NCBI GenBank assembly: GCA_003132165.1
Contig: PKWW01000022.1
Location: 76,134 to 140,133 of the forward strand
Source: Acidimicrobiaceae bacterium
Lineage (GTDB): Bacteria > Actinomycetota > Acidimicrobiia > Acidimicrobiales > RAAP-2
Length of the DNA stretch: 64,000 nt
Direction of reading: 5' to 3'
Part shown: piece after piece, positions 57,088 through 62,095 of the stretch
Layout: every line of letters begins with the position of its first letter
Position numbering within the stretch: position 1 is the first letter of the stretch
Notes under the pieces: model-generated
Seen by the model: only the letters and a program-made list of their open reading frames with translations
What the model was told of the DNA's origin: nothing
Databases searched by the model: none
Translations under genes and position numbers: made by a program

Positions 57088-57172
57088 GGAGGAGTGCGAG
57101 AGCGGCCGAATCGGCACGATTGGAAATCGTGTGAAGGGAAACCTTCCGTGGGTTCAAATCCCACCTCCTCCG
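57088..57172 (+). tRNA. tRNA-Ser (GGA anticodon), 3' CCA encoded
   Basis: GGAGGAGTGCGAGAGCGGCCGAATCGGCACGATTGGAAATCGTGTGAAGGGAAACCTTCCGTGGGTTCAAATCCCACCTCCTCCG(CCA). Confidence 0.95.
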
Positions 57173-57359
57173 CCACCTGTGCTTGACCCCGTTGGCTGGA
57201 CGAGTCCGCCGACTCGCCAGAATTCACGCCTGATGTTCTGAACGCTGGTGTTTGGCAGCTTGGCGATACCGGTGCGTCAACGACCTCTTGGCGAACGAGT
57301 GCACCACGCCCAACCGCACCCCTTGGATGCTTGGTTGACCGATGCACTACCGACAATCG

Positions 57360-58916
57360 TTAATTGCTCTGGTTACTCAGAATCTCACCGGGTAGCGGTC
57401 CCATCGGCATTGCCTGTCCATCCTTGTAGGGCGGCTGGGCTACGGCAAGGCAGGACGCTGGAGCTTTGCAGACGACCTGAAAGATGATGCCCAGTTTGAA
57501 CGGCAGGGGGACCGACATCCACGTTTTGCCTGCATCACTGGTGGCCCAGATCGCCGCCTGCGAACTGCCTAGACGGCCGGTCGGCATAACTTCACCCGCA
57601 ATCCAACACGTCGATGCATTCGTACAGCTCACTGAGTTGTACTCGTCAATGGATGATGTGCTTCCCGTCGGAGCCGGGGTCGCAAACGTCCAGGTGATTC
57701 CTCCATCATTCGTCATCATGATCTCGTTCTTGTTGCTGGGGATGCTGCTTCCCACTGCGACCGTCGCGTAGCACTGCAACGTCGTGGGGCACGTCAAACG
57801 AAGGGTCGAATCGAGCGCGGGAGCGGGGGCCCAATCGGTGTGCCACGTCACCCCTCCGTCGGTGCTGCGCCAGACGAGCACGTTCGATGTCTGAGCGTTG
57901 TCGACGACCGAGTGGAAGACGGACGACAGTCCGACACAATTTGTAGGTGTCGCGCACGACAGCGTCATCAACTGCGCGCTCGACCAGCCTGGCGAACCGT
58001 CGAGCGCGGTCGACCAGGGCAGCACACGAGAAGTCCACGTGACGCCACCATCATCGGTGCGCATGATGACGGTTCGTTGAACGCCTGCAGCAGGGTCGCC
58101 GCCTACCCAGGGCTCTTGGGGTTGATCCGAGGGCACCAGTGCCACAGCGATACACGACGCTGCACTGAAGCACTGCAGTTGCGACCATTGTCCTTGGACG
58201 TTGACAAACGAAGTGTCGAGTGCTGGATCGACACCCAACACTGGGCTGATCGCGACCACGTGACTCGTCCACGTGGCACCACCGTCGGTCGTCGTCAGCA
58301 TCGATTGAACCGTTCCCCGAGGGAACGGGCCAGCTGGGGAGCCCGACGGTGCACGCAACACTCCGACTGAGCACACCGAGACACTCGAGCACGAGAATGA
58401 CGTATCCGCGCTGCCCGCCGCCGGTAGCGAGATCGGCGTCCAGGTGGTGCCACCATCAACCGTCTTGTAAGCCGTCGTCACCGAACTGTCACCATTCACA
58501 ACGGCCCCGGCATTCGTTGACTCGAGATAACAGACTTCACTGGTGGGACACGTCAAGACATTGAATCCTTGCGGGCTCGCCGGAGTCGAAGAGAAGCTAT
58601 TGGCCGTCGCAGCGTCAGCGTTCACAACGCCAAAGGCCTGAGCGATGGAGTTCGTCAATGAAGGCCTTCTGCTGGGTCCTCGGATGCTCAGCACCGTAGA
58701 GACACCGGCGATGAGTAGTACGGCGGCGGCGATTGCGAGGAGCCGGCGAGGGTGGGTCCACGTCATGGAGGTACGACGTCGCGAGCCCGGGCGCGCGGGT
58801 CGTTCGCGCCCTTGGGTCGCGACGATATCGTTCCACGCGTCATCAATCGAACGTGTCGGCTCCCGCGTCACTGGGTTGGCGCTGCGGAGTACGTCTGCGA
58901 ATCGATCATTTGGCAT
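57360..58916 (-). CDS. Membrane-anchored beta-propeller-like (Asp-box/BNR, YCF48-like) protein with seven Cx5C motifs; candidate sigma-factor partner
   Basis: 518 aa; about 57-aa cytoplasmic N-terminus, TM LLAIAAAVLLIAGVSTVLS, six T-x-D-G/A-G-x-T-W Asp-box-like motifs, and 14 Cys, all in seven exact C-x5-C pairs. Confidence 0.75.
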   Translation of the reverse strand: MPNDRFADVLRSANPVTREPTRSIDDAWNDIVATQGRERPARPGSRRRTSMTWTHPRRLLAIAAAVLLIAGVSTVLSIRGPSRRPSLTNSIAQAFGVVNADAATANSFSSTPASPQGFNVLTCPTSEVCYLESTNAGAVVNGDSSVTTAYKTVDGGTTWTPISLPAAGSADTSFSCSSVSVCSVGVLRAPSGSPAGPFPRGTVQSMLTTTDGGATWTSHVVAISPVLGVDPALDTSFVNVQGQWSQLQCFSAASCIAVALVPSDQPQEPWVGGDPAAGVQRTVIMRTDDGGVTWTSRVLPWSTALDGSPGWSSAQLMTLSCATPTNCVGLSSVFHSVVDNAQTSNVLVWRSTDGGVTWHTDWAPAPALDSTLRLTCPTTLQCYATVAVGSSIPSNKNEIMMTNDGGITWTFATPAPTGSTSSIDEYNSVSCTNASTCWIAGEVMPTGRLGSSQAAIWATSDAGKTWMSVPLPFKLGIIFQVVCKAPASCLAVAQPPYKDGQAMPMGPLPGEILSNQSN

Positions 58917-59448
58917 GGGGATCTTCCTTCACGCGATAGATGTGGTGGGGCACAGCAGCCGAGCGCTCGAACTTTTGAAGCGCTCTGTGATAGCGAACAT
59001 TGACGGCGTTGATCGAGAGTCCGAGAACCTGCGCAATGTCCTCTCGCGCCAGTTCATCCCAAAGGACCAACCGAAGAATCTCTTGGTCGGACTCGCTCAA
59101 TCTCGCCATCGCCGAGCGGACGCCCGATCCGTCAAAATCGTCTCTCTCCGGGACGGCGAACTCCTCGGGCATCGCGAATGTTGCACGCTGGAGTTCTCGA
59201 CCCTGCTTTCGCCGAGCGTTCAAGACCTCGAAGCTGGCGATGCGGATAAGCCAAGGGAGTGACGGATTGTCGACCGTTGAATATTTCTCCCACGCCACGA
59301 TGAAACTGGCCGAGACGACGTCATCAGCCTTGGACTGGGGCACTCGGCGAGCAACGTATCGCCAGAGACTGGCGTAGTGTTCGCGAAAGAACATCTCGAA
59401 CTGGCTGGGGAACGTCTTGTCAGGTGATGCGGGATTGTTCGCCATCAC
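58906..59448 (-). CDS. RNA polymerase sigma-70 factor, ECF-like
   Basis: FREHYASLWRYVARRVPQSKADDVVSASFIVAWEKY...PWLIRIASFEVLNARRKQ...SESDQEILRLVLWDELAREDIAQVLGLSINAVNVRYHRALQKFE. Confidence 0.9.
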   Translation of the reverse strand: MMANNPASPDKTFPSQFEMFFREHYASLWRYVARRVPQSKADDVVSASFIVAWEKYSTVDNPSLPWLIRIASFEVLNARRKQGRELQRATFAMPEEFAVPERDDFDGSGVRSAMARLSESDQEILRLVLWDELAREDIAQVLGLSINAVNVRYHRALQKFERSAAVPHHIYRVKEDPHAK

Positions 59449-59732
59449 TCTCTTTACGTCGCGCCGTGCCTCCAGAATTACCGAAAATGTCCGTGGGGGA
59501 AGAAGTTTCTTGTCAAGTGTCGATCAAGACGCCATTGACGGATTTGATGACACCAGCTCGAGCGTCTTGGTAATTGATGGACGTACCACCGCGGGCAACC
59601 ATGTGCAACCGCAATGCGATCTACTTACTGGCCCGACAACGCCCTAGAACAAGCCTCGAGTCGGGCTGGCAGGCACAGGCACCTCTGCTCAGATACTGGA
59701 TTGGTGATGAGTGCCGACTTCCACAATCTGAG

Positions 59733-59752
59733 TGTACTAGTGTACTAGTACA
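59733..59752. promoter_or_regulatory. Putative GntR autoregulatory operator
   Basis: tgtactag-tgtactag-taca: tandem TGTACTAG plus perfect 12-bp palindrome TGTACTAGTACA ending at the A of the GntR ATG. Confidence 0.6.
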
Positions 59753-60162
59753 TGAGTGAGAAGCAGCCGAGCATCCAGTTCCGCCTTGATCCACGCAGCG
59801 GCGTGGCGCCCTATCGCCAGTTGATCGAACAGGTGCGCCAGGCCGTCGAATTGGGGCGTCTCCGCGGCGGTGACCAACTTCCCTCCGTGCGCGAAGTCGT
59901 GACCCAGGTCACGATCAACCCGAACACGGTCCACCGGGCGTACCGCGAGCTTGAGCACCTGGGCCTCGCCGAGGGACGTCTCGGTCTCGGCACGTTCATC
60001 ATCGATAACCCACTCCATCTGGCCACCAATGCCGGACGCAAGGAGTTGGCAAGGAGTCTGCAGGAGTGGACGAGACTGGCACGTGCCGCGGGGCTCGACG
60101 GCGACGACATGCTCGACTTGCTCAGGCAAACATTCAATCGCGACGAACACGTGCTCTCGTGA
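59752..60162 (+). CDS. GntR-family transcriptional regulator (YtrA-like)
   Basis: RLDPRSGVAPYRQLIEQVRQAVELGRLRGGDQLPSVREVVTQVTINPNTVHRAYRELEHLGLAEGRLGLGTFI. Confidence 0.92.
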   Translation: MSEKQPSIQFRLDPRSGVAPYRQLIEQVRQAVELGRLRGGDQLPSVREVVTQVTINPNTVHRAYRELEHLGLAEGRLGLGTFIIDNPLHLATNAGRKELARSLQEWTRLARAAGLDGDDMLDLLRQTFNRDEHVLS

Positions 60163-61076
60163 CGACGCCCGTGCTCGAGACCGTTGGCCTAGCCAAGCGC
60201 TTCGGACGCAAGTGGGCGCTTCGTGACTGCACTCTCTCAATCCCCTCGGGAAAGGTCGCTGCATTGGTCGGACCCAATGGCGCGGGTAAGTCCACTCTGC
60301 TGCGGATGGCCGTCGGACTCTCGCGACCAACCGCCGGAACCATCAAGGTTCTCGGTGAACTACCAGGTCACGAGAACGCAACGCTCTTGCAACGAATCGG
60401 GTATCTCGACCAGGAGCGGCCCCTCTACCGAGGCTTCCGCGTCGACGAGATGTTCCGCTTCGGCCAGGGTGCGAATCCGATGTGGAACATGGAACTGGCC
60501 CACTCGTACGTCGACCAGTTGGGGATCTCGCTACGTGATCAGGTGAACAACCTGTCGAGCGGTCAACAAGCCCAAGTCGCCCTGACAATGTGCCTCGCCA
60601 AGCAACCTGAGCTGCTCATTCTCGACGAACCGGCCGCCGCTCTCGACCCGATCGCCCGAGAGGATCTTCTTCGGCTCCTGATGCGCCAGGTGGCCGAGCG
60701 TGGCACGACCGTGGTCCTCTCCACCCACGCACTCGGCGACGTCGGCTCAATCTGTGACTACCTGGTGATCCTCTCGCACTCCAGCGTCGTCCTCGCCGAC
60801 GACATGGAGTTTGTCGTGGAGAGCCACCGGTTCCTCAGTGCCTCGTCGTCAATCTCGCCGACGCTGCCCGACGGTGTCACCGTGATCGATACTCGCACGA
60901 GCAGTCGTGACGTCACGCATCTGGTACGGATGGCGCTGCCGATCGTTGACGATACGTGGCAGATCACCGAGCCGACCCTGGACGAGATCATCATGGCCTA
61001 TCTGCGGCTCGGAACGAGCTCCGTAGCGTCCGAAGCGCACGGCCCACACGCAGCTACCCGTGGAGGAATCTCGTGA
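60159..61076 (+). CDS. ABC transporter ATP-binding protein
   Basis: LVGPNGAGKSTLLRMAVGLSRP Walker A; NLSSGQQAQVALTMCLAKQPELLILDEPAAALDP; GTG start overlapping the GntR stop. Confidence 0.93.
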   Translation: MTTPVLETVGLAKRFGRKWALRDCTLSIPSGKVAALVGPNGAGKSTLLRMAVGLSRPTAGTIKVLGELPGHENATLLQRIGYLDQERPLYRGFRVDEMFRFGQGANPMWNMELAHSYVDQLGISLRDQVNNLSSGQQAQVALTMCLAKQPELLILDEPAAALDPIAREDLLRLLMRQVAERGTTVVLSTHALGDVGSICDYLVILSHSSVVLADDMEFVVESHRFLSASSSISPTLPDGVTVIDTRTSSRDVTHLVRMALPIVDDTWQITEPTLDEIIMAYLRLGTSSVASEAHGPHAATRGGIS

Positions 61077-62095
61077 CGTGGATGGCGTGGCGGCTGCAGC
61101 GAAGTGTCTTCCTCCTCTTCGTGGTCATGGCCGTGGTTCTGATCGGCTTCGTCATCGCCAATGGGCTGCATACAGAGTCCTTGTTGCACCAATGGAATAG
61201 CGCCACGTGTTACGGCACTCGCCATGGGTACATCACTAAATCCCAGGTGCAGTGCGGGACGATCTTCCACCAATTCGCCCAGTCAACGACGTACGACCGG
61301 TACTTCGCGATGGCCGGTGGTCTGCTGTGCGGTGTCCTCGGTCTTCTGCTGGGCGTGAATCTCGTAGCTAGCGAGATCGACCGCAAGACGGTTCGTACCG
61401 CGTGGACTCAGTCAATTACACGGACTCGTTGGCTCTCCTCAAAGATCATCGTCAGCCTGGGATCGCTGCTCGCCGTGGGGCTACCACTTTGCTTCACCCA
61501 TACCTGGTGGATCGGTGCGGTGAACTACGGATCTCGAGTCGCACCGAACGCCTTCGCCTACGACGGCTGGATGCCCCTCATGATCGGCGTCTTCGCCTTC
61601 GCACTGACGACCGTCATCGGGGTTCTCCTCCGTCGCCCCGGCTGGACGATCGCCGCCGCGCTGATCGCGATGGTGCTTGTCATGTGGACGATGCAAGGCG
61701 AGGTTCGAGCGAACCTTGTCCCATTACGCACGGCCGTCGTGGGGACGACCATCGTCACCAAGGGCGACTTCACCGGAGCGATACCCACCCACGTCGCTCC
61801 GAAGAACTCGTGGATCGTCTTCCAGGGCTACGAGCCGCTCAACTCGGGCAACGCCCTACTCACGCGGGGCGAGGAGACTCGGTGGGGTAATGAGATGAAC
61901 CGGTGCGAAACGGGCCCGATCAGTCAGAGCCAGGTACCGGCGTGCCAGCACAAGCTCGGTCTGCGCGATGTGCAGCTCTACGTAGCCAACAACGAGTTCT
62001 GGACTTTACAACTCCGAGAGGGCGCGATCTACCTGGCCGGAGCGGCGTTCCTGTTCGAACTCAGCCTTTTGCTCGTGCGCCGGACCAAGGCCTGA
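61073..62095 (+). CDS. ABC transporter permease
   Basis: GTG start overlapping the ATPase stop; multiple TM segments; LLGVNLVASEIDRKTVRTAWTQSITRTRWLSSKI. Confidence 0.8.
   Translation: MTWMAWRLQRSVFLLFVVMAVVLIGFVIANGLHTESLLHQWNSATCYGTRHGYITKSQVQCGTIFHQFAQSTTYDRYFAMAGGLLCGVLGLLLGVNLVASEIDRKTVRTAWTQSITRTRWLSSKIIVSLGSLLAVGLPLCFTHTWWIGAVNYGSRVAPNAFAYDGWMPLMIGVFAFALTTVIGVLLRRPGWTIAAALIAMVLVMWTMQGEVRANLVPLRTAVVGTTIVTKGDFTGAIPTHVAPKNSWIVFQGYEPLNSGNALLTRGEETRWGNEMNRCETGPISQSQVPACQHKLGLRDVQLYVANNEFWTLQLREGAIYLAGAAFLFELSLLLVRRTKA

Follow-up and report, generated by a model that had tools for sequence, protein, structure and literature searches.

The two-gene operon described here, from a window of 64,000 nucleotides (the whole stretch of DNA that was analysed) belonging to an Acidimicrobiaceae-like MAG, is best explained as an ECF sigma factor and its membrane inhibitor: the protein encoded directly after the sigma gene is probably a zinc-free, class-II-like anti-sigma factor whose sensor would be a propeller, stapled by disulfides and exchangeable for other ectodomains; its activity, disulfides and signal are all inferred. 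ECF sigma/anti-sigma pairs are a major bacterial route for sensing outside conditions. In most cases the gene of a membrane anti-sigma lies next to that of its ECF sigma factor (PMC8103513), and no more than roughly one ECF sigma in three has a recognisable class I anti-sigma domain close by (PMC7406223). The family to which the window protein belongs would represent a partner type that works without zinc. Natural chimeras, with one sensor fold joined to different sigma-binding ends, are numerous in it, and they open to direct test which part binds the sigma factor, which part is the sensor, and how new pairs of this kind arise. The open-licence literature yielded no account of an ECF partner with a propeller ectodomain, only an unrelated match for anti-sigma together with YCF48, and nothing on the CU044_5270 family that is compared below.

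In the proposed mechanism, which treats the two genes as a self-contained envelope-signalling cassette, the sigma factor would transcribe its own operon from a GTAATT-N15-GACGTA promoter, whilst a cytoplasmic segment of ~57 residues would bind and hold it in a CnrY-like manner, and a seven-bladed Asp-box propeller with one disulfide per blade would serve as the external sensor. An outside ligand or damage may then set off regulated proteolysis, by a site-1 protease, an M50 site-2 protease and then Clp, through which the sigma factor would be freed; alternatively, a conformational change following the same ligand or damage could release it. The window's genome codes for an M50 site-2 protease and for VKOR, which makes it possible that the sigma factor is released by intramembrane proteolysis and that disulfides form outside the cell.

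Sigma gene, operon and promoter-like element

The sigma gene (58906..59448, minus strand; GTG at 59448 and ATG at 59445 are both possible start codons) encodes a protein of 180 residues that exceeds the Pfam cutoffs for Sigma70_r2 (35.5 bits, cutoff 24) and Sigma70_r4_2 (42.6 bits, cutoff 25.7) as well as that of TIGR02937 (54.9 bits, cutoff 42.9). With regions 2 and 4 both present, it classifies as a true ECF type. The gene of its putative anti-sigma factor, a one-TM Cx5C propeller protein of 518 residues found in the same operon in relatives, occupies 57360..58916 on the minus strand and shares 11 nt with the sigma gene (58906..58916, minus strand), an overlap that makes translational coupling of the two probable. 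The first-pass annotation, made from the letters of the window alone, had placed both genes and their overlap exactly to the base.

Immediately upstream of the sigma gene lies a putative autoregulatory ECF promoter, GTAATT-N15-GACGTA (59455..59481, minus strand), with boxes conserved in eight loci. The arrangement in the window and its relatives reads GTAATT-N15-GACGTA-N6-(G/A)TGATG, the GACGTA box ending 6 nt before the start, and when the eight loci are aligned, mean identity is 70 and 93% in the 10-nt blocks that contain the two boxes, against 22–34% for blocks farther upstream. Conserved upstream coding sequence was considered as the cause of this pattern and rejected: four relatives have an in-frame TAG inside the element, which must therefore be conserved as DNA. 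Its spacing and its GACGTA box suit an ECF promoter, the element looks autoregulatory, and the short distance from promoter to start suggests a leaderless transcript. The promoter has one exact match in the window's genome, at its own operon; of the five relatives searched, four also have a single match and the other has three. No regulon is claimed for the window's genome, because the exact match is found only at the operon itself and a search allowing up to one mismatch returned 21 matches against 9 for the control. A second sigma/propeller clade (L009, L007, L175 and L176) has a conserved upstream block of its own, GACATGTA(C/G)TGAGT(G/A)TGAATT, which is unlike the window's element and is possibly a clade-specific promoter.

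The membrane protein and its ectodomain

Hydropathy gives the 518-residue protein one strong TM segment at about residues 58–77 (58686..58745, minus strand), the best hydrophobic 19-mer starting from about residue 60 with ~57 residues before it. Residues 1–57 (58746..58916, minus strand) form the cytoplasmic N-terminus, a putative sigma-binding segment with an LRSANPV motif. Beyond the membrane, an ectodomain of seven Cx5C repeats spans about residues 117–495 (57432..58568, minus strand). The protein has 14 cysteines, every one of them paired in a Cx5C motif (123/129, 176/182, 249/255, 321/327, 376/382, 431/437 and 483/489), and six Asp-box-like motifs starting at residues 152, 209, 287, 351, 402 and 459; the seventh, C-terminal repeat has its Cys pair and no Asp-box. 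Chance can be ruled out as the origin of the Cx5C pattern, as none of 200,000 shuffles of the protein reached seven such motifs (maximum four), and all 14 cysteines are invariant across ten sigma-linked members with identities down to 21%. The cysteine pairs, the six Asp-boxes, the single TM and the length of the N-terminus had been described correctly beforehand, as had the absence of an HxxxCxxC zinc anti-sigma motif, none of which occurs in residues 1–120. A Pfam scan of the protein found no anti-sigma domain and, with neither HxxxCxxC nor a recognised domain, it does not classify with the ZAS/class I anti-sigmas.

Ycf48, HCF136, sialidases and sortilin are all Asp-box propellers. When a profile of ten relatives was compared with the PDB, Ycf48 structures ranked first (E 3.9e-9), followed by HCF136, sialidases and sortilin. 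In the Ycf48 alignment, the first Cys of each pair coincides with the Phe of the pre-hairpin strand, whilst the second lies just past the turn; each pair would staple one hairpin per blade through a putative disulfide. The window protein shares its repeat type and its Asp-boxes with the Ycf48, HCF136 and BNR propellers, but adds to the plan of Ycf48 and HCF136 a Cys pair per repeat, a membrane anchor and linkage to a sigma gene, and its 26.5 bits on the Ycf48 equivalog model fall far under the cutoff of 326 bits. The propeller that the first-pass annotation had proposed thus stands as a Ycf48-type assignment by profiles, and the Pfam HMM check it had suggested places both PSII_BNR (38 bits, cutoff 27) and BNR (32.3 bits, cutoff 27) above threshold. 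AlphaFold models built on shallow alignments were of low confidence, both for the full protein (three-row alignment, pLDDT 28.7) and for a fragment of two blades to which other blades had been aligned (pLDDT 47.3).

Spread of the pairing and exchange of ectodomains

Searches of relatives, order and family gathered 111 distinct ORFs in which the Cx5C motif occurs four times or more, and a sigma gene directly precedes 45 of them: 43 by profile and two, L195 and L207, added by hand. The latter had been candidates for unlinked propellers, and were rejected as such when the upstream ORF of each was found to match sigma region 4. The expectation that homologues would lie next to sigma genes is hence borne out at large scale in the order. 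Among the 43 profile-linked propellers, the gene offset is -4 in 22 and -11 in five (27/43 together), and 37 have exactly seven Cx5C motifs. When the comparison is limited to ORFs with 6–8 repeats and a complete N-terminus, and anchoring is defined as a TM at residues 39–115, linkage by profile is found in 42 of the 46 single propellers that are anchored, or 44 once the two added by hand are counted, and in one of 23 unanchored ones, that one being L194, whose start codon is doubtful; the Fisher value of 5e-13 for anchoring against linkage is descriptive only, because the counts take in the ten seeds and related sequences. ORFs with more than eight repeats are never sigma-linked (0/27), and the secreted Cx5C relatives common in the order (5–20 repeats) almost never are. 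Very long propellers of 13–20 repeats, such as L036, L027, L213 and L225, are likewise common in the order and often begin with a signal peptide-like stretch. A phylum-wide search at E 1e-40, on a thin sample, gave no match outside the window's own genome, and alignment A1 offered no conserved stretch usable for a collection scan.

Related sigma factors without a propeller have a similar layout. The next protein carries a TM on its N-terminal side in 48 of 58 cases and follows at a gap of at most 15 nt in 52 of 58, whilst its ectodomain varies; two more such sigma/one-TM pairs (L164 and L165) are present in the window's own genome. The window pair falls within this wide class, in which single-pass ECF partners carry varying ectodomains, the propeller among them; to have put it forward as a candidate new system is half right. 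When 98 sigma sequences, 41 of them propeller-linked and 57 not, are placed on a maximum-likelihood tree, the propeller label requires 12 changes, at least ten of them forced by well-supported branches, and ectodomains have therefore been exchanged, although the number of changes is a guide, the propeller-linked and other sigmas having been sampled by different searches.

The N-termini bear on the same question. That of the window protein scores 22.1 bits against a profile of 48 N-termini from non-propeller partners, where the best of 200 of its own shuffles reaches 10.2; three relatives score 14.8–18.5 bits, and the N-termini of several other propeller clades do no better on this profile than shuffles (overall shuffle maximum 14.1). 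Over both kinds of system, N-terminal similarity tracks sigma similarity with a Spearman coefficient of 0.22 (permutations 0.03 +/- 0.04; nearest neighbour p 0.012). The window itself is not an example, since the non-propeller sigma closest to its own has a partner with a dissimilar N-terminus. The clearest example is the propeller protein L014, which has nearly the same N-terminus as L116, a member of the CU044_5270 family (159.6 bits), with 28 residues aligned gap-free. As a tentative generalisation, the order may hold a large undescribed set of plug-in anti-sigma sensors that combine zinc-free N-termini, a repeatedly exchanged stapled propeller and feedback from their own promoter. If true, exchange of ectodomains on plug-in anti-sigma N-termini would give rise to new envelope senses.

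Rival roles, known systems and genomic setting

An inhibitory role for the membrane protein draws on the coincidence of anchoring with linkage, on the shared N-terminus and on recurrent linkage to several sigma clades; against it stand the several propeller-clade N-termini that score no better than shuffles on the profile and the fact that no known anti-sigma domain is recognised. It is unlikely that the propeller protein is instead an effector, that is, a surface protein that is the sigma factor's main target and has no regulatory role. Secreted Cx5C propellers without a sigma gene are abundant enough in the order to make such a role conceivable, and the genome's only exact promoter match is at the sigma/propeller operon; however, linked members nearly always possess a cytoplasmic N-terminus and TM that are missing in their secreted relatives, and this N-terminus is common to sigma partners with other ectodomains.

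The invariance of the 14 cysteines in linked members, the VKOR encoded in the genome and the existence of redox-sensing anti-sigmas such as RsrA and OsrA (PMC4598750) would also accord with Cys pairs that act as redox switches, sensing oxidants or reductants directly rather than stapling a ligand-binding propeller. This too is improbable, for the same Cx5C pairs occur in secreted relatives without a sigma gene, which favours a structural role. Least probable is that the membrane protein helps the sigma factor instead of inhibiting it, as a positive co-factor or as a scaffold for its delivery or activation: whilst the gene overlap fixes the ratio of the two proteins and no anti-sigma domain is recognised, inhibition is what one-TM proteins usually do when their gene comes straight after that of an ECF sigma (PMC8103513).

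As a putative class-II-like anti-sigma factor, the window protein resembles CnrY of Cupriavidus metallidurans, the partner of CnrH, in its ECF partner and in its short zinc-free segment before the membrane: ~57 residues are followed by one TM, in a protein whose gene comes immediately behind that of an ECF sigma. In CnrY, two helices wrap around the ECF sigma (PMC7406223, PMC4598750). The resemblance is one of layout, not of demonstrated sequence similarity, and CnrY lacks a propeller and uses a separate sensor, CnrX. The CU044_5270 family (NCBIfam NF038083) likewise comprises one-TM proteins after related ECF sigmas and includes the N-terminus resembling that of L014, but its ectodomain is unrelated, and NF038083 (cutoff 100 bits) gave no match to the window protein up to E 1. 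The same plan, with a short N-terminal sigma-binding domain, one TM and an exchangeable external sensor, is seen in RsgI/SigI of Clostridium thermocellum (PMC12203970). There the sigma factor is of SigI rather than ECF type, the window protein lacks the periplasmic autocleavage domain and carbohydrate sensors of the RsgI system, and no RsgI domain was found in its Pfam scan. ECF57 sigma factors also tie an ECF sigma to propeller-type (WD40-like) repeats, but as a C-terminal extension of the sigma factor itself, whereas those of the window form the ectodomain of a separate membrane protein (PMC8999054).

Only two close orthologues were found in named records by a single-protein scan, both in Acidimicrobiaceae MAGs, one of fen and the other of bog origin; their propellers are 83 and 82% identical to the window's and lie in the same operon, and within the stretches compared the window has no flanking gene in common with either locus. 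The window's copy of the cassette starts 184 nt beyond a tRNA-Ser(GGA) at 57088–57175, downstream of dnaX. The order dnaX then tRNA-Ser recurs in nine relatives, in all of which homology to the window ends within ~30 nt of the tRNA end, and the genes that follow differ among the relatives examined, with an IS3-type transposase in L271. Given this stop in homology and the unshared flanks, the sigma/propeller cassette appears to be an accessory unit that occupies a variable site. A divergent GntR regulator, an ABC ATPase and an ABC-2 type membrane protein (59752–62095) adjoin the window's sigma gene and were not found in the flanks examined of the two orthologous loci, L031 and L032. Transposase-like ORFs, IS110-like by eye, lie near the cassette in both of these loci (L031:3001–4041 and L032:1–384), which suggests that it moves between sites.
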